Of a stretch of 64,000 nucleotides of DNA, positions 18,597 through 53,723 are shown in pieces. Origin of the DNA: Primorskyibacter aestuariivivens (GTDB lineage Bacteria; Pseudomonadota; Alphaproteobacteria; Rhodobacterales; Rhodobacteraceae); assembly GCF_028023675.1 (NCBI RefSeq), contig NZ_JAQIOZ010000010.1:1-64000 (forward strand), read 5' to 3'. The first letter of the stretch is position 1. Each line of letters begins with the position of its first letter. A program made the translations under genes and the position numbers. Under the pieces are notes generated by a model that saw only the letters and a program-made list of their open reading frames with translations, was not told the DNA's origin and did no database searches.

Positions 18597-18638
18597 GGGG
18601 TTTTCCTTTGGATCAGGGTCTGAGTTCCAAAGGACAAA

Positions 18639-18657: not shown

Positions 18658-18731
18658 GGGGTGGGGCACGGAAAACACGGATAAGGACAGGTCAGCGAGA
18701 GCGGTCTAGATCCTGCAGACCACCATAGTGG

Positions 18732-19133: not shown

Positions 19134-19354
19134 GCAAGCGCTTGGAGCAGATCGCGATTCTCATCCATGACGATCTCGGCCGCTGCAAGTGCGGCCTGCA
19201 GTTCAGGGTTTTCCGTCATCAGCTTGAGCCCGCCATCATCCGTGCGCACCGCGTAAAGGGTATCCCCTTCTTTCGCATCAAGCAGCGCAAGCAACTCGGT
19301 GCTGAGTGTCATCACGGCGGAGTTGCCGACTTTGCGGATTTTAGCTTCGATCAT
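19130..19354 (-). CDS. AbrB/MazE-type antitoxin
   Basis: A 74-residue protein with an N-terminal SpoVT/AbrB swapped-hairpin domain (IEAKIRKVGNSAVMTLSTELLALLDAKEGDTLYAV) and a C-terminal helix (NPELQAALAAAEIVMDENRDLLQALA) that should bind the toxin. Start at 19354 follows GAGG; a GTG 12 bases upstream is possible. Doc is classically paired with Phd, so an AbrB-type partner is a less usual combination. A palindrome just upstream is a plausible autoregulatory operator. Confidence 0.82.
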   Translation of the reverse strand: MIEAKIRKVGNSAVMTLSTELLALLDAKEGDTLYAVRTDDGGLKLMTENPELQAALAAAEIVMDENRDLLQALA

Positions 19355-20297: not shown

Positions 20298-22073
20298 TCA
20301 AACAGCCTTAACGTATGATCCAGGTGCGGCCTCGATACCCCTGTATTTGCCTTTGGTCGCGGGTTTGCGGGCGGCAATTTTCTTTGTTTCGCGGGCCGCC
20401 AGCCATTCGGCCCAATGTGGCCACCATGAACCTTCATGTTGCTCAGCCTGCGCAACAAAATCGTCTGGAGAGGCGGGATACGTCGCGCTCGTTAAGTAGC
20501 CATATTTGGCCCGCTCGACCGGGGGATTGATCACGCCAGCAATGTGACCGGAGCCGCCCAAGACGAACTCAACATCGCCACCCAGAAAATCGGTTGCGGG
20601 ATAGACCGACTGCCAAGGCGCGATATGATCCAGTTGGGTCGCCAGAATGAAGCAGGGCGTTGTGATCTTGGTGATGTCAATCTTGACGCCCTTCAGTTCA
20701 AGCGCGCTGGGTTTGCGCAATCCGTTCCGAAGGTAAACCTTCTCAAGATACCAAAGCAGCATGGCAGATGGCAGGCGAGTGGAATCCGAATTCCACGACA
20801 GCAGATCAAAGGCGCGCGGTTTTTGTCCGCGAAGATAGTTCGATTCCACAAAGGACCAGATCAGATCCTTTTCGCGCAGCATCGAGAACATGTCCTGCAA
20901 GTGATGCGCGTCAAGATAGCCTTTGTCCGCCATGTGGTGGCGCATGCTTTCCAGCCGGTCATCATCGACAAAGACGCCAATCTCGCCGACGTTATCGAAA
21001 TCAACCATCGTTGCAAGCGTGGTGGCCGAGGCAATGCGGTCATCCCCAAGGGCTGCCAGATAGGCCAGCATTGCTGTGACCAGAATACCTCCGATGCAGA
21101 AGCCGAGGATGTTGGCTTTATCCTCACCGGTGATGTCGCGGATGGCATCAAGGGCCGCCAGCGGACCTTCGGTCATGTAATCGGCAAAATCCTTGTCGGC
21201 GTGGTCGCGTGTGGGGTTGACCCACGAGATCACAAAGACGGAATGCCCTTGATCCAGCACATAGCGGATCAGGCTGTTTTCCGGCTTCATATCGAGGATG
21301 TAATACTTGTTGATCCAAGAGGGCACAAAGAGGATTGGCGTTGCGTGCTGCTCTTTGGTGGTCGGAGCGTATTGGATCAGCTGCATCAGGTCGTTCTGGA
21401 ACACCACCTGCCCCTTGGTAGTTGCAAGGTCCACGCCAACCTCAAAGGCGGTATCGTCATTGGTGGCAATGTCGAGCCGCCCATCGCCGCGCTCCAGATC
21501 GGTCAGCAGGTTTTCAAGCCCCGCCAGCAGGCTCTCGCCCCGGCTCTCCATCAACTCCTTGCGGGCGACGGGATTGGTCATCAGGTAGTTGCTGGGCGAC
21601 AGCGCGCTGATCATCTGGCGGGTGTAGAAACTGACCCGCATGTGGTCTTTGGAGCCGTCTGGCAAGCGGTCCAGTAACCCGTTGGCGGCGCGATCAAAGG
21701 CCAGAAACACATCACGGTAGCTGCGCGCAATCGGATCATCGGACCAGCTTTGGTCCTTAAAACGCTTGTCCTTGACCGGCACATCGGAAGATAGGCCGAA
21801 CATGGACTGCCATGCGGCCATCATCTCGGTTCCAACGGTCTGCTGAATGTCCATCAATTTGCCTGGATCAGTCATCATGTCGGTCCAGAAGGTACCATAG
21901 GCCTTTGCCAGCGTTCCGGCGTCCATCAGGGCATATTCGGAACCGGACGCCTGTTTGACCGCGTGACCCTGCATTTGGGCGCTCGCGATCATGGCGCGAT
22001 TGGTCAAACGGGCAAGCCGTTCTGTCTGTTCGGCAATGTCAGCTGATTGCGCAGATGCCTTTGTGTCATTCAT
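20298..22073 (-). CDS. phaC: Class I poly(3-hydroxyalkanoate) synthase
   Basis: PHA synthase of 591 residues, polymerising (R)-3-hydroxyacyl-CoA on the granule surface. The lipase-like box GFCIGG places the catalytic Cys at 326; the partner Asp (TQLDHIAPW) is at 482 and the His (GGSGHIAG) at 510, the spacing seen in Cupriavidus PhaC (319/480/508). The length fits class I, which needs no PhaE. Last gene of the minus-strand block, 111 bases after the phasin stop; that gap contains GCAA-AA-TTGC, loosely like PhaR-type sites. No depolymerase, phaB or phaR gene is present in the window. Confidence 0.95.
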   Translation of the reverse strand: MNDTKASAQSADIAEQTERLARLTNRAMIASAQMQGHAVKQASGSEYALMDAGTLAKAYGTFWTDMMTDPGKLMDIQQTVGTEMMAAWQSMFGLSSDVPVKDKRFKDQSWSDDPIARSYRDVFLAFDRAANGLLDRLPDGSKDHMRVSFYTRQMISALSPSNYLMTNPVARKELMESRGESLLAGLENLLTDLERGDGRLDIATNDDTAFEVGVDLATTKGQVVFQNDLMQLIQYAPTTKEQHATPILFVPSWINKYYILDMKPENSLIRYVLDQGHSVFVISWVNPTRDHADKDFADYMTEGPLAALDAIRDITGEDKANILGFCIGGILVTAMLAYLAALGDDRIASATTLATMVDFDNVGEIGVFVDDDRLESMRHHMADKGYLDAHHLQDMFSMLREKDLIWSFVESNYLRGQKPRAFDLLSWNSDSTRLPSAMLLWYLEKVYLRNGLRKPSALELKGVKIDITKITTPCFILATQLDHIAPWQSVYPATDFLGGDVEFVLGGSGHIAGVINPPVERAKYGYLTSATYPASPDDFVAQAEQHEGSWWPHWAEWLAARETKKIAARKPATKGKYRGIEAAPGSYVKAV

Positions 22074-22184
22074 GTCTGATCATTCCCATTCAAGTTTCCG
22101 TTGCATTGGCCAATTTGGTCAGTCGGCCGCAAAATTGCACCAGACCTCTGATCGCTGTGGTAGCCACTGTGGGTTGCCCTTGGC

Positions 22185-22619
22185 TTACGGCTTCAAGTTC
22201 TTCATCGCTTCTGCGACCTGAGCCTCAATTGTGTCATAGGCCTGTTTGTTGGCGTCACATGCGGCGTCCGACAACTCGGTCATTAATTCGAGAGCTCTGT
22301 CAACGGCCTGCTGATAGGCGGTTACATCCTGTTGTGAGCCAGCTTTTGCCTGCTCTGCGGCTTTAGCCGTCAGGTCTTGGAAAATCTTCATCTGTTTTTC
22401 CATAAGATCACGGTAAGATTGCGCAGCGGCTTCGTTTGCCCTCGCCAACGCTTCAAACTGGCTTTTCGATTTCTCGAGTGTGTCCTGCGCGTCTGGAATG
22501 CCCGGGATCGCGGCGAACTTTTCTATCATGGCTTTCGGATCGAATGCCTTGGTTAGATTGGCAGGATCGAACATTTTGAGAAAGTGGTGATATGGGTTCG
22601 AGCTGTCTGTCTTGGTCAT
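22185..22619 (-). CDS. phaP: Phasin, PHA granule-associated protein
   Basis: A 144-residue alpha-helical, amphipathic phasin with the family pattern FEALARANEAAAQSYRDLMEKQMKIFQDL in the middle. Phasins coat PHA granules and limit their size. The start at 22619 is chosen because AGGAG lies 7 bases upstream; an ATG two codons earlier is too close to it. Placed between the thiolase and phaC in the same direction. Confidence 0.88.
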   Translation of the reverse strand: MTKTDSSNPYHHFLKMFDPANLTKAFDPKAMIEKFAAIPGIPDAQDTLEKSKSQFEALARANEAAAQSYRDLMEKQMKIFQDLTAKAAEQAKAGSQQDVTAYQQAVDRALELMTELSDAACDANKQAYDTIEAQVAEAMKNLKP

Positions 22620-22680
22620 TTTCATTCTCCTATTTCTTGTATCTACTTGGTTTTTCGAAAATCTCTTCAACCACAAAAAG

Positions 22681-23865
22681 TTAGGTCATAGCCTCAATTG
22701 CCAAAGCGATGCCTTGCCCGCCACCAATGCACATGGTTACCAAAGCGCGCTTTCCACCCGTGCGTTCCAATTCGTTCAAAGCTTTGATCGTGATGATGGC
22801 ACCGGTCGCGCCAATTGGGTGGCCCAGAGCGATAGCACCGCCATTTGGGTTCACTTTGGCGGTGTCAAAAGCCAGTTCCTTGTTCACAGCACAGGCCTGC
22901 GCGGCAAACGCTTCGTTGGACTCGATCACATCAAAATCTCCGGTGCTCATGCCAAGCTTCTTAAGCAATGTGGTCACGGCAGGAACCGGACCAATGCCCA
23001 TCACTTCGGGGCGAACACCGGCATGGGCGTATCCCAGTAGCCGTGCGCGCGGCTTCAGGCCTGCCTTTTCGGCGGCATCGGCCGACGCCAGAACCATTGC
23101 TGCCGCTCCGTCATTGAGGCCGGACGCGTTACCGGCGGTAACCGAGCCTTCCTTCCGGAAAGCCGGGCGCAACTTGCCGAGGCTTTCAGCCGAGGTCGAG
23201 GATTTGGGGTGTTCATCGGTATCAAATGGCACCATGTCACGACGCACTCTTACCTCGATTGGCAGAATCTGACTTTTGAACCTGCCCTCATTGATGGCCA
23301 CTGATGCGCGACGCTGGCTTTCAGCGGCAAAAGTATCCTGAACGTCACGCGAAATTTGATACTCGTCGGCCACGTTTTCAGCCGTCACACCCATGTGCCC
23401 GCCGCCAAATGGGTCGCTTAGTGCCGCAACCATCATGTCAGTCATGCTCATGTCACCCATTTTCTGGCCAAATCGTGGCGATTGGCTGGAATATGGCGAG
23501 CGCGACATGCATTCGGCACCACCCGCAAGGGCGAAATCGACATCGCCCAGCATGATGTGCTGGGCAGAGGAAACGATGGCCTGCGCGCCCGATCCGCACA
23601 AGCGGTTCACGGTAAGGGCTGGAGCCTCGTTGGGAACTCCTGCTTCGACCGCCGCAACCCGCGCGAGATACATGTCGCGACCTTCTGTATTGATGACATG
23701 GCCGAAAATCGCGTGACCAATCTGCTTGGGATCAACCCCGCTACGAGCGATCGCCTCTTTGGCAACCGCAGCGGCCAGTGTGGTGGGGGCATGCCCGGCC
23801 AACGCGCCTCCAAAGGTCCCAATGGCGGTCCGTACTCCGTCGAGAATTACAACGTCCTGTGTCAT
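22681..23865 (-). CDS. phaA: Acetyl-CoA acetyltransferase / thiolase
   Basis: Thiolase of 394 residues with all catalytic residues: nucleophile Cys90 (VNRLCGSG), His349 (GGAIALGHPIG) and Cys379 (TMCIGGGQG). Length and motifs fit biosynthetic acetoacetyl-CoA thiolase, but degradative use cannot be excluded from sequence. The block has no acetoacetyl-CoA reductase (PhaB) and no 3-hydroxyacyl-CoA dehydrogenase, so the thiolase must share one encoded elsewhere. AAGGA precedes the ATG at 23865. Confidence 0.92.
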   Translation of the reverse strand: MTQDVVILDGVRTAIGTFGGALAGHAPTTLAAAVAKEAIARSGVDPKQIGHAIFGHVINTEGRDMYLARVAAVEAGVPNEAPALTVNRLCGSGAQAIVSSAQHIMLGDVDFALAGGAECMSRSPYSSQSPRFGQKMGDMSMTDMMVAALSDPFGGGHMGVTAENVADEYQISRDVQDTFAAESQRRASVAINEGRFKSQILPIEVRVRRDMVPFDTDEHPKSSTSAESLGKLRPAFRKEGSVTAGNASGLNDGAAAMVLASADAAEKAGLKPRARLLGYAHAGVRPEVMGIGPVPAVTTLLKKLGMSTGDFDVIESNEAFAAQACAVNKELAFDTAKVNPNGGAIALGHPIGATGAIITIKALNELERTGGKRALVTMCIGGGQGIALAIEAMT

Positions 23866-23929
23866 CTTTTGGTTCCTTTTTCTGGTTTTCTTAGGGGGCC
23901 GGCTTGATTTCATTCCAACCCAAGGCCGC

Positions 23930-24502
23930 TCAAGAACGACCCATCAAATAGAACTCGGTGTTTGGGCGCATCGACGTGAAATTGGCCATCCGGTTGGAAA
24001 GCCCAAAGAAAGACGTCACAGCTGCGATGTCCCAAATGTCCTCGTCAGAGAAGCCATGTTCGCGCAAAGTTTCAAAATCGGCATCCTCGGTCGCCTCGGC
24101 GCTGTTTGATACCTTCAAAGCAAAGTCGAGCATCGCCTTTTGGCGCGGAGTGATGTCTGCTTTGCGATAGTTGGCCGCAACCTGATCCGCGATTGTCGGA
24201 CTCTTGGCGCGGATTCGAAGAATAGCGCCATGGGCCACGACGCAATATTGGCAGCTGTTATCGCTGGACGTGACCACGATGATCATTTCGCGGTCGGCCT
24301 GCGTCAGCCCGCTTTCGCTTTCCATGACGGCGTCGTGATAGGCCATGAAGGCGCGGAATTCGTCGGGGCGATGGGCGAGTGTCAAAAACACATTCGGGAT
24401 GAAACCAGCTTTTTCCTGCACTCCGAGCATCCGATCTTTGAGGTCCTCGGGAAGATCGTTGATGTCCGGGATCGGATAGCGGCTGATTGCGGGGACAGTC
24501 AT
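23930..24502 (-). CDS. Peroxidase-related CMD/AhpD-fold protein
   Basis: A 190-residue protein of the carboxymuconolactone decarboxylase/AhpD fold, of the type often annotated uncharacterized peroxidase-related enzyme. The redox-active CQYCVVAHG (CxxC plus His) lies near residue 84, and SFFGLSNRMANFT near the end is typical. Such proteins reduce hydroperoxides or act as small thiol-dependent reductases. In this block it may protect against peroxide from flavin-linked acyl-CoA oxidation; that is inference from position. Confidence 0.82.
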   Translation of the reverse strand: MTVPAISRYPIPDINDLPEDLKDRMLGVQEKAGFIPNVFLTLAHRPDEFRAFMAYHDAVMESESGLTQADREMIIVVTSSDNSCQYCVVAHGAILRIRAKSPTIADQVAANYRKADITPRQKAMLDFALKVSNSAEATEDADFETLREHGFSDEDIWDIAAVTSFFGLSNRMANFTSMRPNTEFYLMGRS

Positions 24503-24553
24503 CTGAATTCCTTGGCCTTTGTCACCAGCTTCTGATGACTGGATGTTTGACGG

Positions 24554-25003
24554 TCACGCTGCCTCGGCGGCGCGTTTGGCAGCAGACGTGGTTTTGACGG
24601 TGGCTTCGCCTTCAACAACGACGGCCCCGCCTACCCGGCACGTGGTCGCCAGAACAACACGGCTGCGCCCTGCAATCAGTTCCTTGACCACAACTTCGGC
24701 GTGGACGGTATCGCCTGGGCGTACCGGGCCAGTAAAACTCATCGCCTGAGAGATATAGATGGTGCCCGGCCCAGGCAGCTTGTTTGCGATGGCCGCGGAA
24801 ATGGTGCTCGCGGTCAGGAAGCCATGCGCGATCCGCCCCTTGAAGGGCGTTGTCTGGGCAAATTCCTCATTGATGTGAATGGCATTGTTGTCCCCCGAAG
24901 CACCGGCAAACAGGACAATGTCGGCTTCGGTGATTGTCTTTGAGAACGTGGCTGACATGCCAATTTCCAGGTCCTCGAAATCGTATCCGTTCAATTCATT
25001 CAT
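24554..25003 (-). CDS. phaJ: (R)-specific enoyl-CoA hydratase, MaoC fold
   Basis: A 149-residue single-hotdog MaoC-like hydratase. The hydratase motif FAGASGDNNAIHIN holds the catalytic pair Asp38 and His43, with the same five-residue spacing as in Aeromonas PhaJ, followed by RIAHGFLTAS. It turns trans-2-enoyl-CoA into (R)-3-hydroxyacyl-CoA, the PhaC substrate, and so links the acyl-CoA dehydrogenase upstream to polymer synthesis. The start at 25003 is preferred: family similarity begins there and AAGGAG is upstream. Confidence 0.9.
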   Translation of the reverse strand: MNELNGYDFEDLEIGMSATFSKTITEADIVLFAGASGDNNAIHINEEFAQTTPFKGRIAHGFLTASTISAAIANKLPGPGTIYISQAMSFTGPVRPGDTVHAEVVVKELIAGRSRVVLATTCRVGGAVVVEGEATVKTTSAAKRAAEAA

Positions 25004-25034
25004 GGCGTGACGCTCCTTCTGAGAACTTCTTGGC

Positions 25035-26660
25035 TTACATATTCGGATAGTTCGGACCGTCCCCACCCTGGGGCGTGGTCCAGACGATGTTTTGACTGGG
25101 GTCCTTGATGTCGCAGGTTTTGCAGTGGACACAGTTTTGGAAGTTGATGACGAATTTTTCGTCGACAACTTCGTAGACGCCCGCCGGACAATAGCGTTGG
25201 GCGGGTTCCGCATAGTCAGGCAGGTTCACGGCTATTGGTACGTCTGGATTGATGAGTTTGAGGTGCGCAGGTTGGCTTTCCTCATGATTTGTCATCGAGA
25301 ACGAGACGTTTGTCAGGCGGTCAAAGCTGAGCGTGCCATCGGGTTTCGGGTAATCGATGGGCTTGAAATCGGCCGCTTTTCCGGTTGCAGCGGCGTCAGA
25401 TTTGCCGTGTTTCAGGTTCAGGGGCGAGGTCCCGAAAAGGGTGTTGCACCACATGTCAGCGCCCCCCACGACTAGTGACGTGACGAGACCCCATTTGGAC
25501 CATAACGGTTTGACATTGCGCACGGGTTTGAGGTCCTGACCGATTGGGCCGGAGCGCACTTCGGTGTCATAATCCGCAAGCGTATCACCCGAGCGGCCAG
25601 CAGTGATGGCCTGGTGTGCGGCCTCGGCGGCGGCCTTGCCCGACAGCATGGCGTTGTGATTGCCCTTGATGCGCGGCACGTTGACCATTCCTGCCGAACA
25701 CCCCAACAGCGCGCCACCCGGAAAGGCGGTTTTGGGCAAGGATTGCCATCCCCCCTCGGTGATCGCGCGCGCGCCATAGGCGACGCGCTTGCCGCCCTTC
25801 AACAGGTCGGCGACCATCGGGTGATGCTTGAACCGCTGGAACTCCATGTATGGGTAAAGGTGCGGATTCTTGTAGTTCAGGTGAACGACAAGCCCGACAT
25901 AGACTTGATTGTTATCAAGATGATAGATGAACGATCCGCCGCCAGCGTTTTTGCCAAGCGGCCAGCCCATTGTATGCGTGACGGTGCCTTCACAATGTTT
26001 GGCTGGGTCAATCTCCCAGATTTCTTTCATACCAAGGCCGTATTTTTGAACCCCTGACTCGGCGGCAAGGTCGAATATTTCGATGGCCCTTTTTGACAGC
26101 GAACCGCGCACACCTTCGGACAGGAAAACGTATTTGCCGTGAAGCTCCATACCCGGCTCATAGGCTTCAGACGGGGTGCCATCGGCGTTCAGACCAAATT
26201 CGCCAGCGACGACACCTTTGACCTCACCCTCGTCACCGAAGACGAATTCGGAACAGGCCATGCTAGGGAAAATCTCGACACCTAGAGCTTCGGCCTGTTC
26301 GGCCATCCAGCGACAGACATTGCCCATCGAAACGATGTAGGCTCCGTGATTGCTCATTATCGGGGGCATGACGAAATTGGGGATGCGCACTTTTCCGGCC
26401 TCGCCCAGCATGTAGAAGTTGTCTTTCCTGACCGGCACCGTGATCGGTGCGCCCATCTCGCGCCAATTGGGCAGCAATGCGTCAAGCCCGCAAGGATCAA
26501 GCACCGCGCCCGAAAGGATATGCGCACCAACCTCAGACCCTTTTTCCAACACAACGACGCTGAGGTCTGCATCGAGCTGTTTCAGGCGGATGGCGGCGGA
26601 CAGACCCGCAGGCCCTGCCCCCACAATCACCACATCATATTCCATGCTTTCTCGGGTCAT
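25035..26660 (-). CDS. etfD: Electron transfer flavoprotein:ubiquinone oxidoreductase
   Basis: ETF-QO of 541 residues, a membrane-associated enzyme passing electrons from reduced ETF to ubiquinone. N-terminal FAD-binding [18 protein letters not shown], a middle [19 protein letters not shown] region, and a C-terminal 4Fe-4S domain with RYCPAGVYE and [17 protein letters not shown]. Start 26660 lies 8 bases after the acyl-CoA dehydrogenase stop. Together with etfA and etfB this gives the block its own electron route from acyl-CoA oxidation to the quinone pool. Confidence 0.95.
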
Positions 26661-26667
26661 GTTGGCC

Positions 26668-28467
26668 TCACGCCTCCTGCAGCAGGTCGTCAGCCGACAG
26701 TCCAAGGACCGCGCCGGCTCCATTCAGCACCGCGCTAAGGCGGGCCTGTGCATCCGGGAAAACCTGGCGTGCAAAGAACTCGGCCAAACGGATCTTGCTT
26801 TGCGCACTTGCCGGATTTTCACCACCGGCAATCTGTTTGGCGGCTGCCAGCGCGGCGTCACCCATCGCCCATGCGCCAAAGGCCGTGTTAAACAACTCCA
26901 GCACATTGGCCGCCGAGGCCAAAGGCGCGCTCCGGTCTTTTTGGACGCTTGCCAATATCCATGCCGTTGCCCGTTCCACGGCGTCCGCGCCTTGGGCCAC
27001 GGTGCGGGACAACATCGCCCAATCGGCGGCATCACCGCTTGCGGCTTTGAGCGCCTTTGCACTGGCGCGCATGTCGGTCACGATCTCGGCCACGGCTGCG
27101 CCTTTGTCGCGCAGGATTTTGCGGCCGATCAGGTCAAGCGCCTGAATGCCGGTTGTGCCTTCGTAAATTGTGGTGATCCGGGCGTCACGCAAATGCTGTG
27201 CAACACCAGTTTCTTCGACGTAGCCCATGCCGCCGTGAACCTGCATGCCCAGCGACGCAACTTGGATCGACATTTCCGTTGAGCCGCCTTTGACCACCGG
27301 GATCAGCAGATCGACACGTCGCTGATGGAAGGCGCGGGTTTCCGGGTCTGTCGAGCGGTGGGCGAAATCCAGTGAGGCAGCAGCGCGGTAGGCAAGGATG
27401 CGCGCGGCCTCTGTCCGGCTTTTCATTATGCCGAGCATCCGGCGGATGTCAGGATGCAGGATGATCGGCGCACTGCCTTCTACGCCGGGTGCGCCGCCTT
27501 GCTTGCGATCGGCGGCATAACGTGCGGCGTCCTGCAACGCGTGTTCGGCAACGCCGATGCCCTGCAGGCCCACATTGAGGCGCGCGCTGTTCATCATGGC
27601 AAACATGTACTCAAGACCACGGTTGGGCTCGCCAATCAGATAGCCAATCGCTCCAGCATTATCACCAAAGGACAGCGAACAGGTCGGGCTCGCGTGAATG
27701 CCCAGCTTGTGTTCGATGGACACACAGCGCACATCGTTTGCTTCGCCTGGTGCGCCAGCAGCGTCGAGAAGGATCTTTGGCACCAAGAACAACGAGATGC
27801 CTTTGACACCGGCAGGCGCATCCGGCAACCGCGCCAACACCAAGTGGATGATGTTGGCGGTCAAGTCATGTTCACCATGGGTGATGTAAATCTTTTGACC
27901 TTTGATGCGATAGTGATCGCCGTCGGGCGTAGCCTTGGACCGGATCGCTGCCAGATCGGATCCAGCTTGCGGCTCCGTCAAGTTCATGGTGCCGGTCCAT
28001 TCGCCAGTGACCAGCTTGGGCAGGTAGGTGTTTTGCAACTCTTCCGAGGCGTATCCTTCAAGCGCCTCAATCGCGCCTTGGGTCAGCATCGGACACAGTT
28101 GGAATGCCATGTTCGCGCCCTGGAACATTTCCTGAATGCAGGCATTCACCACATAAGGAAGGCCCATTCCACCATGCTTCGGGCTGGCGGAGGGGCTGTT
28201 CCAGCCCATTTCGACCAGCGTTTCATAGGCTCCAGCCCAACCTTCGGGCATTGTGACCTTGCCTTCATCAAATCCCAGACCAGCCAGGTCTCCGACCCGG
28301 TTCAGTGGCGAAAGCTCCTGACCGGCGTATTTTGCGGCTTCGTCGAGAATGGCGTCGATCATATCAGGCGTTGCGTCTTCAAGCTCCGGCAGTTGGGAGA
28401 TTTCGTCGAGGTTGCACAGGTTGTGCAGCACGAAACGCATGTCTTGAACGGGGGCGGCATAGGTCAT
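26668..28467 (-). CDS. Acyl-CoA dehydrogenase, DmdC-like long form
   Basis: FAD-dependent acyl-CoA dehydrogenase of 599 residues, in the long subgroup with a C-terminal extension that also contains DmdC (3-methylmercaptopropionyl-CoA dehydrogenase). Visible are [16 protein letters not shown] (FAD contact), [11 protein letters not shown], the substrate region SPTCSLSFG, and [20 protein letters not shown] with the catalytic Glu near residue 430. Members vary widely in substrate, so the acyl chain is not predictable here. Situated between etfA and ETF-QO with 15- and 7-base gaps, hence one transcript. Confidence 0.9.
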
Positions 28468-28482
28468 ATCAGGAGCTCCTGC

Positions 28483-29409
28483 TTACAGTTTTTCAGTGAG
28501 TTCAGGCACGGCGTCGAATAGGTCAGCGACCAGTCCGTAGTCGGCAACTTGAAAAATTGGGGCTTCTTCATCCTTGTTGATGGCAACGATGATCTTGCTG
28601 TCCTTCATGCCTGCGAGGTGTTGAATGGCACCTGAAATGCCCACGGCAATATAGAGATCAGGTGCAACAACTTTGCCGGTCTGGCCGACCTGCCAGTCAT
28701 TCGGAGCAAACCCGGAATCGACTGCGGCGCGCGAGGCCCCCACAGCCGCGCCAAGCTTGTCCGCCAGCGCTTCGATGATATTGAAATCGTCCTCGGAGCC
28801 AACGCCACGTCCGCCAGACACCACTATACCTGCAGATGTAAGCTCCGGACGGTCGCTTTCGGCAAGCTTGTCTTCGACCCATTCCGAAAGACCAGGATTG
28901 GCGGGAGTTCCTATGGTCTCGATGGAGGCGGCTGCCTGTTCGCTTGCGGCATCGAATGTCGATGTGCGGAACGAGACAACCTTGGTGGCATCAGATGATT
29001 TCACTGTTTGAATGGCGTTGCCTGCATAGATTGGGCGCTCGAAAGTCTCGCCGTCCACGACATCGGACACATCGGAAATCACCATCACATCCAACAAGGC
29101 AGCAACGCGGGGCAAAACGTTTTTTGCGTCTGTCGTCGCAGGTGCAACGATGTGGCTGTAGTCACTTGCCAGTGACACGATCAGTGCCGCCGTGCTTTCC
29201 GCCAGGCGGTGCCCAAGGGATGCATCCTCGGCGCATAGCACTTTGGTGACGCCCGCGATTTTCGCAGCTTCATCCGCCGCACCGCTGGCCGAACCACCAG
29301 CACAGAGTACCGTGACAGGACCTAACGAAGCCGAAGCCGTCACGGCCTTGGCGGTTGCGTCCCGCGCCAAGACGCCATCATTCACTTCTGCCAAAAGAAG
29401 AACAGCCAT
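28483..29409 (-). CDS. etfA: Electron transfer flavoprotein alpha subunit
   Basis: EtfA of 308 residues. The C-terminal FAD domain carries [56 protein letters not shown] and the final [10 protein letters not shown]...[16 protein letters not shown]. It accepts electrons from acyl-CoA dehydrogenases as a heterodimer with EtfB. Its ATG shares a base with the etfB stop (TGATG), so translation is coupled and stoichiometry is likely 1:1. Confidence 0.95.
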
Positions 29410-30167
29410 CACACAGCCCCCGCATCTTTGAGTTTCGCCACCAGTTCATCGACCGAGCCGACAATCATTCCCGCCGCGCGTACTGCAGGCTCTTCGGTTT
29501 TCAGGACTTCAAGCCGTGGGGAGACGTCTACGCCGTAATCAGCAGCGGTCTTTTCATCCAGAGGCTTGCGCTTTGCCTTCATGATGTTGGGCAGCGACGC
29601 ATAGCGCGGCTCATTCAGGCGCAAATCCACCGTGATCACAGTTGGCATCTTGGCGCTGATGGTTTGAAGCCCGCCGTCCACTTCACGGGTGACCTTTGCA
29701 CTATCGCCCTCGATCTCAACTTCCGAGGCGAATGTGGCCTGTGACCAGCCGAGCAATGCCGATAGCATCTGGCCCGTGGCGTTCATGTCGTTGTCGATGG
29801 CCTGTTTGCCACAAAGCACCAGGCCGGGGGTTTCTTCGGCAACAACGGCCGCTAGGATTTTGGCCACGGCAAGTGGTTCGAGATCGGTATGCACATCATC
29901 TGCCGCGATCACGAGAATGGCCCTGTCTGCCCCCATCGCCAATGCGGTGCGCAGGGTTTCCTGTGCTTGTTTGACACCAATGGAAACGGCCACGATCTCG
30001 TCAACCTGACCGGCCTCTTTCAGGCGGATCGCCTCTTCGACGGCAATCTCATCGAACGGGTTCATCGACATTTTGACATTGGCCAAATCGACGCCGCTGC
30101 CGTCTGCTTTGACGCGGACCTTTACGTTGTAATCAATCACGCGTTTGACTGGTACGAGGACCTTCAT
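29409..30167 (-). CDS. etfB: Electron transfer flavoprotein beta subunit
   Basis: EtfB of 252 residues with [18 protein letters not shown] at the start, [17 protein letters not shown], and the AMP-binding/recognition loop region around [25 protein letters not shown]. Partner of EtfA. The 51-base gap to livM contains a compact GC-rich hairpin GCGCGCC/GGCGCGC (30192-30209), which may separate transporter and catabolic expression levels but lacks a T-run. Confidence 0.95.
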
Positions 30168-30218
30168 TTTTCTTCTCCGCTGTCTGGGGCCGCGCGCCGT
30201 GAGGCGCGCCGCAAGTCA

Positions 30219-31142
30219 TCAGAAGGATTTTTTCAACATGGCGTGCAGTTCTCCGATGATCCCGCGCCGGAAGGCCAACACGCAGACCACAAAGATCGTG
30301 CCCAACACCACCGGCACCCAAGCGCCGAGCGGGCCAGAGGCCAGATAGTTTTGCAGCGTGACAATCACCCCGGCGCCCACTGCAGGACCGGCGATGGTGC
30401 CAAGACCGCCTAGCAGTGTCATCAGGACAACCTCGCCCGACGTGTGCCAATGCACATCCGTCAGCGACGCAAGTTGAAATACAACTGTCTTGGTGGACCC
30501 GGCCAATCCGGCCAAGGCGGCGGACAGAACGAAGGCCAGATGCTTGTAGCGATCAACATCATACCCAAGCGATGTGGCGCGATCTTCGTTGTCGCGGATC
30601 GCGCCAAGGATCTGACCAAAGGGCGAGTACACGGCACGCGCGATGATCAGGAAGCCGATCACGAACACTGCCAGAACGAAGTAGTACATGGTCAGGTTGT
30701 CCTGCAGATCGAAGATGCCCAGCGCATAGCCGCGCGGCACACCCTGCAGACCGTTTTCGCCGCCTGTGAAATCGGCACTGATGAAGATGAAATACACCAT
30801 CTGGGCCAGCGCCAGGGTGATCATCGCGAAATAGATGCCCTGACGGCGGATCGCCAGCATACCGATCAGGTAGCCAAGAGCGGCGGCAGATCCGGCGCCT
30901 ACCAGCAGGCCAAGTTCCGTGGGCAGACCCCAGACCTTGATCACATGTCCGGTGATATAGGCAGCCCCGCCAAAAAACGCGGCATGACCAAAGCTGAGCA
31001 GCCCGCCATATCCCAGGATCAGGTTGAACGCACAGGCAAACAAGGCAAAGCACAGCAGCTTCATCAGGAAGACCGGGTAGATCATGAACGGTGCAACCAG
31101 CAACAAGGCCAGAGCGATACCGTATCCAACTTTCGTATTCAT
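30219..31142 (-). CDS. livM: Branched-chain-type ABC transporter permease LivM
   Basis: Permease of 307 residues with about nine hydrophobic segments and the family signature GYGGLLSFGHAAFFGGAAYI near residue 48 and LLGGLGTIAGPAVGAG near 250. Start taken at 31142 (MNTKVGYGIALALLLVAP); the longer frame overlaps livH. One of two membrane subunits of a Liv/HAAT-type importer. These systems import branched amino acids but also many carboxylic and aromatic acids; with the acyl-CoA synthetase alongside, an organic acid is more likely than an amino acid. Confidence 0.92.
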   Translation of the reverse strand: MNTKVGYGIALALLLVAPFMIYPVFLMKLLCFALFACAFNLILGYGGLLSFGHAAFFGGAAYITGHVIKVWGLPTELGLLVGAGSAAALGYLIGMLAIRRQGIYFAMITLALAQMVYFIFISADFTGGENGLQGVPRGYALGIFDLQDNLTMYYFVLAVFVIGFLIIARAVYSPFGQILGAIRDNEDRATSLGYDVDRYKHLAFVLSAALAGLAGSTKTVVFQLASLTDVHWHTSGEVVLMTLLGGLGTIAGPAVGAGVIVTLQNYLASGPLGAWVPVVLGTIFVVCVLAFRRGIIGELHAMLKKSF

Positions 31143-31152
31143 CTCATGTACC

Positions 31153-32043
31153 TCACGCAGATTTGCCAAACAGGCCCGCAGGACGCAGAACCAGCACGAT
31201 GGCCATTACAAGGAAGATCACGGTGGCAGAGGCTTCGGGCCAGAACACCTTGGTCAGCCCTTCGACAACGCCCATGGCAAGCCCGGTGACAACCGCACCG
31301 ACGATCGACCCCATGCCGCCGATCACGACAACCGCGAACACCACGATGATCAGGTTCGACCCCATAAGCGGGCTGACCTGGGTAATGGGTGCGGCCAGCA
31401 CGCCGGCAAAGGCCGCCAGTGCAACGCCATAGCCATAGGCAAGCGTGGTCAGGACCGGAACGTTCACGCCGAATGCCTGCAACAGTTGCGGATTTTCGGT
31501 GCCGGCGCGCAGATAGGAGCCGATCTTGGTGCGTTCGAACAGGACCCATGTGGCGATGCACACGATCAGCGACGCGACAACGACCCAGGCGCGGTAGTAG
31601 GGCAGGAACATGAACCCGAGGTTGATACCGCCGGTCAGTTGTGGCGGTGTCGGGTACGGGATGCCGGAAGCTCCGAACAGCTTGACAAAGATACCCTCGA
31701 TCACAAGCGCCAGACCGAATGTCAGCAACAGGCCATAAAGGTGGTCGACACCGGTCAGTCGGCGCAACAGGTACCGTTCGATCACTATTCCCAGGGCACC
31801 AACGATCAGTGGCGCCAGGATGAGCGCGCCCCAATAGCCAACACCGAGGTACTTCGCGAGGAAGTAAGTCGAGAACGCGCCAAGCATGTAAAGCGCGCCA
31901 TGGGCGAAATTGACGATATTCAGAAGTCCGAAAATCACCGCGAGACCGAGCGACAGCACGGCGTAAAATGCGCCGTTGATCAGGCCCAGCAGCAGTTGTC
32001 CGAACAACACTTGTGGCGGTATTCCAAGAAGGTCGGTGAGCAT
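31153..32043 (-). CDS. livH: Branched-chain-type ABC transporter permease LivH
   Basis: Permease of 296 residues. LivH pattern: GLINGAFYAVLSLGLAVIFGLLNIVNFAHGALYMLGAF at the N-terminus and VVVIGGMGSIVGAVVTGLAMGVVEGL near 240. About eight hydrophobic segments. It ends 10 bases before the livM start and begins 70 bases after the binding-protein gene, a gap that holds a stable hairpin. Confidence 0.92.
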   Translation of the reverse strand: MLTDLLGIPPQVLFGQLLLGLINGAFYAVLSLGLAVIFGLLNIVNFAHGALYMLGAFSTYFLAKYLGVGYWGALILAPLIVGALGIVIERYLLRRLTGVDHLYGLLLTFGLALVIEGIFVKLFGASGIPYPTPPQLTGGINLGFMFLPYYRAWVVVASLIVCIATWVLFERTKIGSYLRAGTENPQLLQAFGVNVPVLTTLAYGYGVALAAFAGVLAAPITQVSPLMGSNLIIVVFAVVVIGGMGSIVGAVVTGLAMGVVEGLTKVFWPEASATVIFLVMAIVLVLRPAGLFGKSA

Positions 32044-32077
32044 CTCGCGGCGTCCTGTCTCTTAGTATTGTGAGGGG

Positions 32078-32105
32078 TCCGCCCGGGCGACAAGGCCCGG
32101 GCGGA
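32078..32105 (-). terminator. Intercistronic hairpin between livK and livH
   Basis: Perfect 11-bp GC-rich arms TCCGCCCGGGC/GCCCGGGCGGA with a 6-base loop and no T-run. Its position just after the binding-protein gene fits mRNA stabilisation or partial termination, giving more binding protein than permease. Confidence 0.65.
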
Positions 32106-32113
32106 GTATGGTC

Positions 32114-33319
32114 TTACTTGGTCGGGCAGTTGCTTTCCGACAGCGGGCCAAAGGCCTCTTCACCGGGGATGGTGCGGACGATGTCGTAGTAGTCCCACGG
32201 GCCGGTGCTTTCGGCGGGGGCTTTCACGCGGGCAAGGTACATGTCGTGCACCATGCGGCCGTCGCTGCGCACTTCGCCGCCCTTGGCAAAGAAGTCATCG
32301 ACAGGCATTTCGCGCATTTTCGCCAGAACCGCGTCGGTGTCATCGGTGCCGGCCGCTTCAACCGCTTTCAGGTAGTGCATGACGGACGAGTAGACACCGG
32401 CCTGAACCATTGTCGGCATGGTGCCGGTCTTTTCGTTGAAACGCTGCGACCAGGCGCGGGTTTCATCGTTCAGATCCCAGTAGAAACCGGTTGTCAGCTG
32501 AATGCCCTGGGCGGTGTCCAGACCAAGCGCGTGGATGTCGGTGATGAAGGTCAGCAGCGCGGCAATCGACTGACCGGCGGCAACAAGACCAAACTCGTTC
32601 GCTGCCTTGATCGCGTTCACGGTGTCGGCGCCGGCATTGGCCAGACCAACAACCTTGGCACCCGATGCCTGGGCCTGCAAAACAAACGACGAGAAGTCCG
32701 ACGACGGGAACGGGTGCTTGATCGAACCCAGAACCTGACCACCTTCGGCTTCGACAACGGCCGCGACGTCACGCTCGAGGCTTTCGCCGAATGCATAGTC
32801 GGCCGTCAGGAAGTACCAGGTGTCGCCGCCTTCTTTCACAACGGCAGATCCTGTGCCAACGGCCAGGGCGCGGGTGTTGTAGGTCCAGTGAATGCCGGTC
32901 GGGATGCAGGCATCGCTGGTCAGCGGGGAAGATGCGGCACCGGACACGAGCGCGAGCTTGTTCTGCTGTTTCGCAATCTCGAAGACCGCCAGTGCAACCG
33001 AGGTGGTGACCAGTTCGGCGAACACGTCGACCTGCTCGCTGTCGCCCCATTGGCGGGCCTTGTTGGCTGCGATGTCAGCCTTGTTCTGGTGATCGGCCGA
33101 GATCAGCTCGATCGGCGCGCCGGCAGCTGTGCCGCCAAAATCCGCAATTGCCATTTCGGCAGCAACAACCGAGCCGTTGCCGGCCAGATCGGAATAGGTG
33201 CTGGACATGTCCGTCAGCACGCCGATTTTGACCTTGCCATCGCTGACTTCGGCTGCCGCAGCCGACGCGATCATCGCGGTTGCTGAAACGCCGAGGGCGA
33301 GTTTCTTAAGAATATTCAT
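32114..33319 (-). CDS. livK: Liv-type ABC transporter substrate-binding protein
   Basis: Periplasmic binding protein of 401 residues (peripla_BP_6 family). A signal peptide (NILKKLALGVSATAMIASAAAAEV, cleavage near 23) precedes VKIGVLTDMSSTYSDLAGNGSV. An excellent ribosome site, AAGGAGG, lies 6 bases before the ATG. Sequence pattern resembles the subgroup annotated for organic acids and amides rather than LivK of Escherichia coli (substrate contacts cannot be read by eye). It sits between the ATPase and permease genes. Confidence 0.9.
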   Translation of the reverse strand: MNILKKLALGVSATAMIASAAAAEVSDGKVKIGVLTDMSSTYSDLAGNGSVVAAEMAIADFGGTAAGAPIELISADHQNKADIAANKARQWGDSEQVDVFAELVTTSVALAVFEIAKQQNKLALVSGAASSPLTSDACIPTGIHWTYNTRALAVGTGSAVVKEGGDTWYFLTADYAFGESLERDVAAVVEAEGGQVLGSIKHPFPSSDFSSFVLQAQASGAKVVGLANAGADTVNAIKAANEFGLVAAGQSIAALLTFITDIHALGLDTAQGIQLTTGFYWDLNDETRAWSQRFNEKTGTMPTMVQAGVYSSVMHYLKAVEAAGTDDTDAVLAKMREMPVDDFFAKGGEVRSDGRMVHDMYLARVKAPAESTGPWDYYDIVRTIPGEEAFGPLSESNCPTK

Positions 33320-33343
33320 GGTCTTCCTCCTTGGGGTGATAGT

Positions 33344-34096
33344 TCAAACGCTCAGATATTGATCAAAGACATCGCTCTTCGTTTCGAGCTCGTCCGCTTC
33401 GACGGTCTCGACGATATGTCCGTGATCCATGATGAAATGCCGGTCCGCGAGCGGCGCGGCGAAGCGGAAATTCTGCTCAACCAGAATGACGGTGTAGCCG
33501 CGCTTTTTCAGCTCGATCAGGATTTCGGCAAGCTTGTCGACGATCACCGGGGCCAGACCTTCGGTGATCTCGTCCAGCAGCAACACGGTCGCACCGGTCC
33601 GCAGGATCCGCGCCATGGCCAGCATCTGCTGTTCGCCACCCGACAGCCGCGTGCCCATGCTCTTGCGGCGCTCCGCAAGGTTGGGGAACATGTCATACAG
33701 CTCTTCGACCGACATACCGCCCGGCGCGATGGTTGGCGGCAGCATCAGGTTTTCCTCGACATTCAGGCTGGAGAAGATGCCGCGTTCCTCGGGACAATAG
33801 CCGACACCAAGCCGTGCAATGGCATGCGGCTGCGATTTGATGACTTCCTCGCCCTTGAGCACGATGGACCCGGTGCGATGGCCAATCAGACCAACGATCG
33901 AACGCAGTGTCGTGGTGCGCCCGGACCCGTTGCGGCCCAGAAGCGTGACCAGTTCCCCCTGGTTCACGGTCAGGTCGATGCCGTGCAGCGCATGACCTTC
34001 GCCATAGAAGGCATGCAGATCGGTGATGCGAAGTTCTTCGATATGTTCCGATACGTGCTGGCCGCCGATTTCGGTGTTCTGGACGGAGGTGTTCAT
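33344..34096 (-). CDS. livF: Liv-type ABC transporter ATP-binding protein LivF
   Basis: ATPase of 250 residues with LSGGEQQMLAMARIL signature and Walker B VLLLDEITEGLAP. The Walker A reads LLGRNGSGRTTT: the usual invariant Lys is Arg (codon CGC). I recall similar Arg-bearing LivF sequences in alphaproteobacteria, so this is probably a tolerated family variant rather than loss of function. Overlaps livG by 4 bases. Confidence 0.92.
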   Translation of the reverse strand: MNTSVQNTEIGGQHVSEHIEELRITDLHAFYGEGHALHGIDLTVNQGELVTLLGRNGSGRTTTLRSIVGLIGHRTGSIVLKGEEVIKSQPHAIARLGVGYCPEERGIFSSLNVEENLMLPPTIAPGGMSVEELYDMFPNLAERRKSMGTRLSGGEQQMLAMARILRTGATVLLLDEITEGLAPVIVDKLAEILIELKKRGYTVILVEQNFRFAAPLADRHFIMDHGHIVETVEADELETKSDVFDQYLSV

Positions 34097-34851
34097 GCCG
34101 CTTTCCCCATATAGGCTTCCTTGACGCGTGGGTCGGAGGACACTTCGTCGTAGTTTCCTTCGGTCAGAATGGCGCCGCGTTGCAGAACCGTGATGCGGTC
34201 ACACAATGTGGACACGACACCGAGGTTGTGCTCGACCATCAGGATTGTGCGGTCCTTGGACACTTTGCGGATCAGCTGGGTGATGCGTTCCACATCTTCG
34301 CGACCCATGCCCTGGGTCGGCTCGTCGAGCAGCATCAGTTCCGGTTCGAGCGCCAGCGTCGTGGCAATCTCGAGCGCGCGTTTGCGGCCATAGGGCATAT
34401 CGCCCACCACCGAGTCGGTGAACCGTTCAAGGCCAACCATGTGCAGCAATTCATCGGCGCGTTCGTTCAGCACGTTCAAGGACGACAACGGCTTCCAGAA
34501 ATGGAAGGACGTGCCCAGTTTGCGTTGCAGGGCCACGCGCACGTTCTCGCGGGCTGTCATGTGCGGAAACACGGCGGAAATCTGAAACGAGCGGATCACG
34601 CCCATGCGCGAGATTTCGGCAGGTTTCGAGGCCGTGATGTCGGTGCCATTGACCTTGATCGTGCCGCGCGTCGGGACCAGGAACTTGGTCAGCAGGTTGA
34701 AAACGGTGGTTTTTCCCGCGCCGTTCGGACCGATCAGCGCGTGAATATCATGGCGTTTGACCTTCAGGTTAACGTCATCAACCGCAGTGAAACCTTTGAA
34801 TTCCTTGGTCAGGCTTTCGGTCTCAAGAATATATTTGGCCGTGTCATTCAT
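34093..34851 (-). CDS. livG: Liv-type ABC transporter ATP-binding protein LivG
   Basis: ATPase of 252 residues with a canonical Walker A (LIGPNGAGKTTVFN), a signature region altered to YGRKRALEIATTLALEP as is usual for LivG, and Walker B LMLLDEPTQGMG. It overlaps livF by four bases (ATGA). Upstream lies the terminator of the acyl-CoA synthetase gene, so either readthrough or an own promoter in the 73-base gap must drive the transporter genes. Confidence 0.93.
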   Translation of the reverse strand: MNDTAKYILETESLTKEFKGFTAVDDVNLKVKRHDIHALIGPNGAGKTTVFNLLTKFLVPTRGTIKVNGTDITASKPAEISRMGVIRSFQISAVFPHMTARENVRVALQRKLGTSFHFWKPLSSLNVLNERADELLHMVGLERFTDSVVGDMPYGRKRALEIATTLALEPELMLLDEPTQGMGREDVERITQLIRKVSKDRTILMVEHNLGVVSTLCDRITVLQRGAILTEGNYDEVSSDPRVKEAYMGKAA

Positions 34852-34865
34852 CGTTTCTCTTTCTG

Positions 34866-34906
34866 AAAAAAATGGGTGGAGCAGAGGAAGGAGATTGCTC
34901 CACCCA
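34866..34906 (-). terminator. Rho-independent terminator after acyl-CoA synthetase
   Basis: Perfect 11-bp arms TGGGTGGAGCA/TGCTCCACCCA with a 12-base loop, followed on the minus strand by seven T. This is the clearest intrinsic terminator in the window; it lies inside the apparent 15-gene block. Confidence 0.9.
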
Positions 34907-34924
34907 GTTCAGGGAGGTTCTGTT

Positions 34925-36553
34925 TCAGAGCGCCCGTGCGCGATCCCGGAGGAGGAACTTCTGGATCTTGCCGGTCGACGTCTTTGGAAGATCCCCGAAC
35001 ACCACGGTCTTGGGCGCCTTGAATGTCGCCATGTTCTGACGGCAAAAGGCGATGACGCTGGCTTCATCCAGGGTTTCCCCGGGCTTGACGGCGACAAAGG
35101 CACACGGCGTTTCGCCCCACTTTTCATCCGGGCGCGCCACAACGGCCGCTTCCAGAATGGCGGGGTGCTTGTAGAGCACGTCCTCGACCTCGACCGACGA
35201 GATGTTCTCGCCGCCGGAGATGATGATGTCCTTGGACCGGTCCTTGAGTTCGACGAACCCGTCGGGGTGCATCACACCAAGGTCGCCCGAGGCAAACCAG
35301 CCGCCCTTGAACGACTTGTCGGTCGCGCTCGGGTTCTTGAGGTAGCCGCGCATGACGTTGTTGCCGCGCATGAAGATCTCGCCCAGCGTTTCGCCGTCAT
35401 GGGGAACCGGTTCCAGGCTTTCGGGATCGGCAACCATCAACCCGTCCAGGGCCAGGTTCTTGACCCCCTGACGCGACTTGAGCTTGGCCCTGGCTTCGCC
35501 GTCCAGCCCGTTCCACTGGTCTTTCCAGGCGCAGACAACCGACGGGCCATAGGTTTCGGTCAACCCGTACACATGGGTCACGTCGATGCCCATCGCTTCC
35601 ATTTTCTCGATCACCGCTGCGGGCGGCGAGGCCCCGGCGGTCATGACCTTGACCTCATGCGAGAAATCTTTCAGCTCATCCGGGGCATTGGCCAACATGT
35701 TCAACACAATCGGCGCGCCGCAGAAATGGGTCGCTTTCTCGTCGCGGATCAACTGATAGATCGGCTCGGCGCGCACGGCACGCAGACACAGGCACACGCC
35801 CGCATTTGCCGCGATGGTCCAGGGGAAACACCAGCCGTTGCAATGGAACATCGGCAGCGTCCAGAGATACCGCGAATGCTGGGCCATGCCCCAGGTGACG
35901 ATATTGGAGGTCGCGTTCAGCATGGCGCCGCGGTGGTGATACACGACACCCTTGGGATCGCCGGTGGTGCCTGACGTGTAGTTCAGGCTGATCGCGTCCC
36001 ATTCGTTTTCAGGCAGCGACCATTCGAATGCGGCGTCGCCCTCGGCAAGCAGTTCATCATAGGTGAGTTCACCGACACGCGCACCGCCGTCAAAGCTGGC
36101 ATCTTCGATATCCACCACAAGGATGTCATCGCGGCCCGACATTTTGACGGCGCGGCTGACCACTTCGGAAAACTCGACATCGACCAACAGAACCTTGGTT
36201 TCGGCGTGGTTCAGGATGAAGGCAATCGCTTCGGCATCGAGCCGGGTGTTGACCGTGTTCAGCACGGCACCGGACATCGGCACACCGAAATGGGCCTCGA
36301 ACATCTCGGGGAGGTTGGCCGCGATCACCGTGACGGTGTCACCTTTGCCAACACCGCGTGACGTGAGCGCGCCGGCAAGCTGACGGCAACGTTGATAGGT
36401 GGTCTGCCAATCGCGGCGGATATCGCCATAAATAACTGCTGGATAATCCGGGTAAATCGATGCCGTACGCTCGATAAAGCTTAGTGGAGACAAAGCGACA
36501 AAATTTGCCGGCGTCATGTCCAACCCATGTTCGTAAATGGTGGTGTGCTGCAT
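34925..36553 (-). CDS. Acyl-CoA synthetase (AMP-forming, medium-chain type)
   Basis: Ligase of 542 residues of the ANL superfamily: carboxylate + ATP + CoA to acyl-CoA + AMP. The P-loop NYTSGTTGDPKGVVYHH lies near 180, GLTETYGPS near 330, the hinge region ASGDLGVMHPDGFVELKDRSKDIIISGGENISS near 420, and the catalytic Lys in KTSTGKIQKF near 530. The pattern resembles short/medium-chain and DmdB-like ligases rather than long-chain FadD. GGGAG precedes the ATG. First gene of the block, followed by a terminator; divergent from the histidine kinase. Confidence 0.9.
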   Translation of the reverse strand: MQHTTIYEHGLDMTPANFVALSPLSFIERTASIYPDYPAVIYGDIRRDWQTTYQRCRQLAGALTSRGVGKGDTVTVIAANLPEMFEAHFGVPMSGAVLNTVNTRLDAEAIAFILNHAETKVLLVDVEFSEVVSRAVKMSGRDDILVVDIEDASFDGGARVGELTYDELLAEGDAAFEWSLPENEWDAISLNYTSGTTGDPKGVVYHHRGAMLNATSNIVTWGMAQHSRYLWTLPMFHCNGWCFPWTIAANAGVCLCLRAVRAEPIYQLIRDEKATHFCGAPIVLNMLANAPDELKDFSHEVKVMTAGASPPAAVIEKMEAMGIDVTHVYGLTETYGPSVVCAWKDQWNGLDGEARAKLKSRQGVKNLALDGLMVADPESLEPVPHDGETLGEIFMRGNNVMRGYLKNPSATDKSFKGGWFASGDLGVMHPDGFVELKDRSKDIIISGGENISSVEVEDVLYKHPAILEAAVVARPDEKWGETPCAFVAVKPGETLDEASVIAFCRQNMATFKAPKTVVFGDLPKTSTGKIQKFLLRDRARAL

Positions 36554-36724
36554 GGTGGTTTCTCCCGAACTGTCGTGTTGGGGAGTGTTTGCCAGACAGA
36601 TGTTGTCGAAGTTTCAGTCAAATGTACCCAATTGTACGGCCATCTGGTTTGAGCGCGTAGAAGCCGCTAGATTCGTGTAAATTGAAGCTTGCCGAAGTCT
36701 CTTTCCCAATTGGGGCACTTGACC

Positions 36725-53713: not shown

Positions 53714-53723
53714 GGGGATCTCC

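Follow-up and report, generated by a model that had tools for sequence, protein, structure and literature searches.

Clusters in which a polyhydroxyalkanoate (PHA) synthase, PhaC, stands beside an (R)-specific enoyl-CoA hydratase, PhaJ, or beside a phasin have been described in Aeromonas caviae and Burkholderia, and they frame the present analysis of a 15-gene block on the minus strand (20298-36553) of a 64,000-nucleotide stretch of DNA from Primorskyibacter aestuariivivens (contig NZ_JAQIOZ010000010.1, positions 1 to 64,000), here called the window. The phaP-phaC-phaJ cluster of A. caviae likewise keeps PhaJ, PhaC and phasin together, and its PhaJ supplies C4-C6 monomers from β-oxidation; the accessible part of the source names phaP-phaC-phaJ alone, with no importer, ligase, dehydrogenase, electron transfer flavoprotein (ETF), ETF:ubiquinone oxidoreductase (ETFQO) or regulator pair (PMC4823750). 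In Rhodospirillum rubrum, butyrate has likewise been proposed to enter poly(3-hydroxybutyrate) (PHB) by way of crotonyl-CoA and PhaJ, and granules increase on butyrate; unlike in the block, the genes for PhaJ (Rru_A2964), synthase (A2413) and phasin (A2817) are described there as lying far apart (PMC7238569). In Burkholderia phaC group B, phasin and/or PhaJ adjoins phaC, and a second, canonical phaC cluster is invariably present as well; in group D1 phaC stands beside a fused PhaJ-Pta and AckA, two D1 strains being without the canonical cluster; as described in the sections consulted, neither group includes importer, dehydrogenase or ETF in the cluster, unlike the block (PMC8231600).

Two further sets of loci resemble different parts of the block. 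Alphaproteobacterial clusters of kinase, regulator, ligase, EtfBA and dehydrogenase occur in Azospirillum thermophilum (L141), Thioclava (L139) and Hyphomicrobiaceae metagenome-assembled genomes (MAGs; L065, L067), at 63-75% identity to the block for the ligase, 62-67% for EtfBA and 52-62% for the dehydrogenase. Instead of Liv genes they have an ActP-type symporter (L065, L141 and, as a look-alike, L067) or no transporter that was seen (L139); no PHA orthologue lies in the stretch, and ETFQO is found in the Hyphomicrobiaceae MAGs only. The lactate operons of Paracoccus zhejiangensis, P. tegillarcae and P. marinaquae share with the block the PhaC lineage (59-60%), a phasin-like protein and a content reaching from transporter to polymer; they differ in their substrate and in using PDH and PhaAB rather than dehydrogenase and PhaJ. 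The searches made of open-licence papers yielded no description of the block's gene combination; the initial annotation had called the families known and the whole chain, as far as known, undescribed.

The block runs from the ligase through LivG, LivF, LivK, LivH, LivM, EtfB, EtfA, acyl-CoA dehydrogenase, ETFQO, PhaJ, a CMD protein, thiolase and phasin to PhaC, with intergenic gaps of -4 to 111 bp (Table 1). The list of open reading frames, the NCBIfam and Pfam scans and the refined starts, which depart from the longest open reading frames for PhaJ (25003), phasin (22625), thiolase (23865), ETFQO (26645), EtfA (29409) and LivM (31142), bear out the number, strand, order and coordinates of the genes as first annotated. 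Phasin, PhaC and PhaJ belong to a single same-strand gene run, as in a PHA operon of the phaP-phaC-phaJ type, and the order of the block is beyond chance, as parts of it recur in other genera. Overlooked at first were a kinase/regulator pair (36725-39420) divergent from the block, a direct repeat before the ligase, and further copies of PHA genes, EtfB/EtfA and ETFQO at other places in the genome. Judged from sequence, the block is probably an accessory operon under a dedicated two-component system, serving acid uptake, activation, one oxidation into ubiquinone and polymerisation by PhaJ and PhaC. The kinase and the OmpR-type regulator would turn on a single promoter before the ligase, where a candidate site is conserved. 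As their families suggest, the Liv-type importer would take in a short- or medium-chain monocarboxylate and the PRK08162 ligase would form its CoA ester. The dehydrogenase, with its catalytic residue kept, would yield the 2-enoyl-CoA, ubiquinone receiving the electrons, as the domains present would allow, via EtfBA and ETFQO of the block itself. From the 2-enoyl-CoA, PhaJ, whose catalytic residues align, would form the (R)-3-hydroxyacyl-CoA by hydration, for polymerisation by the accessory class I PhaC on granules coated by the block phasin. The BktB-type thiolase would handle 3-ketoacyl-CoA together with enzymes coded elsewhere.

Support for a single promoter comes from the intergenic region between kinase and ligase. 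In an alignment of ten loci (window, L047, L052, L053, L158, L159, L160, L162, L163, L139), which we chose for adjacent kinase and ligase genes, leaving out L054 and L161 (neither with a kinase in view) and loci with both genes in the same direction, ACAATT is present in 10/10 and TACAATT in 9/10 regions, and the TACAATT element forms part of a direct repeat with 10-bp register. At ≤3 mismatches the candidate site is the sole match in the window, none lying within the block, and window shuffles averaged 0.59 such matches; a genome search at ≤2 mismatches returned one exact site, at the front of the block, and three others with 2 mismatches, the reversed control giving 1 match. No further target for a regulon was named from the pattern, because the genome holds a single exact site. 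A scan for promoters and terminators did not depart from chance, with 5 promoter-like hits (chance mean 6.5) and 22 terminator-like hits (chance mean 18.4). A dCache sensor domain is present in the Phaeospirillum kinase orthologue, and the Azospirillum annotation includes a cache-domain protein.

Regarding the acid, the five Liv-type subunits belong to binding-protein, permease and ATPase families by family scans, and each scores below the cut-offs of the listed NCBIfam Liv/Urt models; therefore, no substrate name comes from the Liv genes. Naming the substrate from LivK through its closest solved chains (3i09, 3n0w) was dropped, as these yielded no ligand and neither was named in the 8 papers listed of 97. 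In MAGs of Phaeospirillum (L084) and Hyphomicrobiaceae (L065) and in A. thermophilum (L141), an ActP-type symporter adjoins the orthologous kinase, regulator, ligase (63-66%) and dehydrogenase (51-54%) genes, which points to small monocarboxylates. The closest solved chain to PhaJ is 5cpg and its closest solved relatives are PhaJ enzymes; Ile/Val occupy the pocket positions that correspond to A. caviae Leu65/Val130 (mapped by eye, with residue roles from the available part of PMC4823750). A short- or medium-chain monocarboxylate, C4-C6, is our best guess for what is imported. The thiolase passes the subfamily model PRK09051 only and fails the BktB equivalog NF042999 (598 bits against a cut-off of 725), and homologues of the CMD protein (68% and 75%) sit near related genes in L162 and L040. 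The PhaC catalytic triad, Cys-Asp-His, was read off an alignment.

The distribution of the block was followed by a dehydrogenase search across the genome contigs of 84,980 species, which confirmed 90 relatives, 80 loci being kept; the gene calls at these loci used a codon score trained on twelve block genes and may miss or shift genes. The contiguous full chain was seen only in the window among the loci examined. Poseidonocella (L052) and Mangrovicoccus (L053) have regulator-kinase and ligase-LivGFKHM-dehydrogenase without EtfBA, as does a second Mangrovicoccus (L054) for ligase-LivGFKHM-dehydrogenase, the kinase pair not being in the stretch examined. Maritimibacter harenae (L048) has EtfBA-dehydrogenase-ETFQO-PhaJ-PhaC at 67-85%, with nearby Liv-like and ligase-like genes that match the block at merely 25-34%, and a short contig of a Paracoccus MAG (L066) carries dehydrogenase-PhaJ-PhaC. 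The chain is thus modular and not a fixed system, its halves occurring apart, and the balance of the evidence favours a block that joins an uptake/activation/oxidation module to a polymerisation tail, the two meeting at EtfBA-dehydrogenase. On a Silicimonas MAG contig (L046) the DNA is 97.1% identical over 8.8 kb, from LivH to thiolase, with both ends cut. The 99% match belongs to G106, a genome assigned to another genus, where it sits on a contig equal in length; recent transfer or misbinning is therefore possible. The dehydrogenase orthologue was absent from 3/3 sampled same-genus genomes (E≤1e-150). An Acinetobacter baumannii plasmid (L202), with MFS transporter, dehydrogenase, MaoC/PhaJ and EtfB adjacent, mirrors part of the block in a gammaproteobacterium. 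The entire block was not seen on a named plasmid in the 13 neighbourhoods opened of 122 listed rows, one being unannotated.

Within the family, the dehydrogenase is present in 7/394 genomes (E≤1e-185), LivK in 7/394 (E≤1e-165) and PhaC in 9/394 (E≤1e-180), own genome included in each count. With the own genome set aside, dehydrogenase and LivK co-occur in G156, G363 and G414 (6 and 6 of 393; hypergeometric 4e-5), and LivK and PhaC in G019 and G355 (6 and 8 of 393; 5e-3), both values being uncorrected for kinship. Several assemblies end inside the ETF genes. G363 has LivM then EtfB, with EtfA-dehydrogenase-ETFQO on another contig; G355 has LivM then EtfB, and the end of ETFQO followed by PhaJ, PhaC and a ligase; G019 has LivM then EtfB, and the end of ETFQO followed by PhaC, a FadB-like gene and a ligase. 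From these contig ends the full chain may be present in G355 and G019, in neither of which a dehydrogenase orthologue was found at E≤1e-185. The halves lie on different contigs in G156 and its Liv operon stops after LivM; therefore, they are separate there. Contigs also break within etfB, etfA or ETFQO at L132, L136, L158, L159, L161, L162, L168, L169, L049 and L050, and near-identical duplicated ETF genes would explain such breaks. In the genome studied, a second ETFQO copy is 79-80% identical to that of the block. A single origin of the block ETFQO was unsupported: block copies intermix with housekeeping copies, the best tree needs three changes, and a single change occurs in 0% of 200 bootstrap trees, although the starred branches would still permit one origin.

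The PhaC of the block has a wider context. In a 25-row tree one branch (100/100) sets the 16 rows of its lineage apart from the others, the rows having been picked by similarity, so that the split from housekeeping PhaC is partly by construction. The same lineage closes operons of thiolase, PhaB, three PDH subunits, a phasin-like protein, lactate permease and LutABC, which are plasmid-borne in P. zhejiangensis and P. tegillarcae; in P. marinaquae a single contig carries the run, into which PntAB is inserted, and a GntR-like regulator (named by eye) lies divergently at the start. These Paracoccus operons (L192, L193, and L199 with L204) are apparently self-contained routes from lactate to PHB. 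Their phasin-like proteins are 26-29% identical to the block phasin (pairwise E 2e-8 to 2e-14), and no Pfam model matched them at 0.001. In G165 the lineage follows PhaB-like (by eye), ligase-like and thiolase genes, with propionyl-CoA carboxylase-like and methylmalonyl-CoA mutase-like genes (named by eye) downstream; in G223, G151 and a second P. marinaquae copy the stretch read gave no substrate-to-polymer context. These parallels support the self-contained route to polymer as a recurring design. A conserved probable membrane protein of ~450 residues follows PhaC or PhaJ in Paracoccus (L066 3658-5016, L050 2595-3983), without a Pfam match at 1e-8 or an NCBIfam match at 1e-40. M. harenae and a plasmid of Phaeobacter sp. 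G2 (L196) have a near-identical PhaC stretch in common, which adjoins a second, different Liv-plus-ligase operon; on the plasmid the PhaC gene is shorter and stands beside Tn-type transposition genes.

Several observations weigh against one acid-to-polymer unit for short acids. Fluviibacterium sp. MJW13 (L047) holds the front half alone: kinase, ligase, LivGFKHM, EtfBA and dehydrogenase are there at 81-96% protein identity, and its DNA resembles that of the window (84.5% over 11.8 kb) as far as window position 26665, three bases beyond the dehydrogenase gene, the sequence past it being unrelated to the block. The dehydrogenase and PhaC are together in no other genome of the 394-genome set at the thresholds used, the PhaC lineage being found in 0/6 of the other family genomes that carry the dehydrogenase. 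Among ten other genomes behind dehydrogenase loci of at least 63% (L047-L054, L066, L072; the Silicimonas contig set aside), three have this PhaC lineage (59-67%) and seven a distant PhaC alone (best 37-39%). From these counts the PHA genes are therefore an optional tail. Synteny, on which the initial annotation had made the unity of the block depend, is thus largely limited to parts, which recur in other genera. The dehydrogenase pocket is mixed as well. Among solved chains the enzyme scores 470 bits with FadE1, 465 with FadE2 and 447 with 6ijc, which we take to be DmdC. FadE2 is active on C4-C8 and has a narrow tunnel with Met130, Glu296 and Gln303, FadE1 acts on C8-C18 with little activity on C6, and FadE1 with the Met change alone kept its long-chain preference, as far as the consulted part of the source describes (PMC11890623). 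At the three FadE2 positions the window dehydrogenase carries Met, Ala and Gln, the Ala being as in FadE1. The mixed pocket and the FadE1 result thus give a mixed signal for the chain length. Lastly, alkane clusters include close relatives of this dehydrogenase.

The acid-to-PHA route of the initial annotation consequently holds up in part. Its compact layout, gene families, catalytic residues and order fit, the lone site match lies at the block front, and the PhaC lineage ends similar operons; against these stands the optional tail. A rather unlikely explanation, deserving weight all the same, is an acid-catabolic operon with a hitch-hiking PHA tail: the front half would break down an acid for growth, the PHA genes would have been captured downstream of it, and the polymer would come mainly from the other phaAB and phaC loci. 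The front halves without tail in Fluviibacterium, Poseidonocella and both Mangrovicoccus, none having this PhaC lineage, agree with it, as do the stop of DNA similarity at the dehydrogenase end and the lower GC content at 20-24 kb (0.550, against 0.58-0.60 at 24-36 kb). The genome also has phaA-phaB on C5 (phaA named by eye; PhaB above the TIGR01829 cut-off) and phaC-phaP-phaP-phaR on C1 (phaP and phaR named by eye), the C1 PhaC being only 35% identical to that of the block. The block is hence a second PHA locus; PhaB, which the initial annotation called missing, is present elsewhere in the genome, and a PhaB route may therefore operate. What speaks against hitch-hiking is that PhaJ, which needs the front half's enoyl-CoA, belongs to the tail: it directly follows ETFQO in the window, Maritimibacter, G156 and G355, and directly precedes PhaC in Maritimibacter, G355 and the Paracoccus MAG, while the same PhaC lineage closes complete lactate operons.

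Oxidation of medium- or long-chain fatty acids, or of acids derived from alkanes, appears less probable still. Dehydrogenase relatives at 65-67% lie in a cluster that includes an annotated alkane monooxygenase (Phaeobacter plasmid) or have similar-looking neighbours, named by eye (G179 and G287); but no alkane gene is among the genes scanned here, the pocket has Met where the alkane clusters have Leu/Val, and PhaJ resembles C4-C6 enzymes. That PhaJ works mainly in reverse, feeding (R)-3-hydroxyacyl-CoA of stored polymer into oxidation in a block for polymer turnover, is quite improbable: the 15 genes include importer, synthase and phasin instead of a depolymerase, even though FadB-like genes adjoin PhaJ in G156 and PhaC in G019 and PhaJ-mediated PHA mobilisation is reported, in the part of the source seen, for Haloferax mediterranei (PMC4823750). 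Least credible is degradation of methylthiopropionate as in dimethylsulfoniopropionate metabolism, with DmdB/DmdC-like enzymes. The 447-bit match to 6ijc, presumably DmdC, would favour it, but FadE1 and FadE2 score higher, the ligase reaches 322 of the 822 bits that the 3-(methylthio)propionyl-CoA ligase model requires, and the 6ijc-like pocket Gly is absent from the block dehydrogenase and present in an own-genome paralogue on C3; DmdB/DmdC identity was rejected on these scores and the pocket.

Table 1. Genes of the block, its divergent regulator pair and the candidate site (window coordinates)
Feature	Position	Strand	Basis or remark
Class I PHA synthase, accessory lineage	20298..22073	-	TIGR01838 650.6 bits, cut-off 622.65; PhaC_N and alpha/beta hydrolase domains; Cys/Asp/His triad aligned
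Phasin	22185..22625	-	PF09361
Thiolase, BktB subfamily	22681..23865	-	PRK09051 cut-off exceeded
CMD-fold peroxidase-related protein	23930..24502	-	above TIGR01926 cut-off
PhaJ, (R)-specific enoyl-CoA hydratase	24554..25003	-	MaoC fold, Asp/His dyad kept
ETF:ubiquinone oxidoreductase	25035..26645	-	PF05187 + PF21162; FAD, ubiquinone-binding and 4Fe-4S domains
Acyl-CoA dehydrogenase, ~600 residues, FadE1/FadE2-like	26668..28467	-	catalytic Glu kept
ETF alpha subunit	28483..29409	-	84% identical second copy elsewhere in genome
ETF beta subunit	29409..30167	-	89% identical second copy elsewhere in genome
LivM-type permease	30219..31142	-	family scans, refined start
LivH-type permease	31153..32043	-	family scans
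LivK-type periplasmic binding protein (Peripla_BP_6)	32114..33319	-	Pfam; closest solved chains 3i09, 3n0w
LivF-type ATPase	33344..34096	-	family scans
LivG-type ATPase	34093..34851	-	family scans
Acyl-CoA synthetase, AMP-forming, PRK08162 subfamily; first gene of the block	34925..36553	-	PRK08162 922 bits, cut-off 677
Candidate regulator site, direct repeat TACAATT-NNN-TACATTTG, upstream of ligase	36619..36636	-	intergenic alignment
Hybrid histidine kinase (PAS_7, PAS_4, HisKA, HATPase, receiver)	36725..38701	+	divergent from block
OmpR-type response regulator	38698..39420	+	family scans

Around the block, the low side (14334-19354) has a strawberry-notch-type helicase and a Fic/MazE-like pair, and the high side (48790-63480) a YhaV/PrlF pair and ParB-like, ArdC-like and resolvase genes; gene content of this kind suggests an accessory or mobile region.

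If the block works as a single unit, a transferable operon would convert an external acid to polymer, passing the electrons straight to ubiquinone and leaving the host PHA genes unneeded, and its lactate counterpart in Paracoccus hints that the design is general. We advance, tentatively, that Rhodobacterales may carry a class of mobile 'substrate-to-polymer' operons in which one accessory PhaC lineage, in many cases accompanied by a phasin of its own, has been combined with complete modules for uptake and oxidation, for an acid with EtfBA/ETFQO in the window, for lactate with PDH/PhaAB in Paracoccus and perhaps for propionate in G165. Polymer would then be the programmed, regulator-switched product of one substrate and not general overflow storage. 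A block that acts as one unit would also make PHA formation testable as a substrate-specific, regulator-driven pathway, and it could serve as a ready-made cassette for turning volatile fatty acids into polymer.

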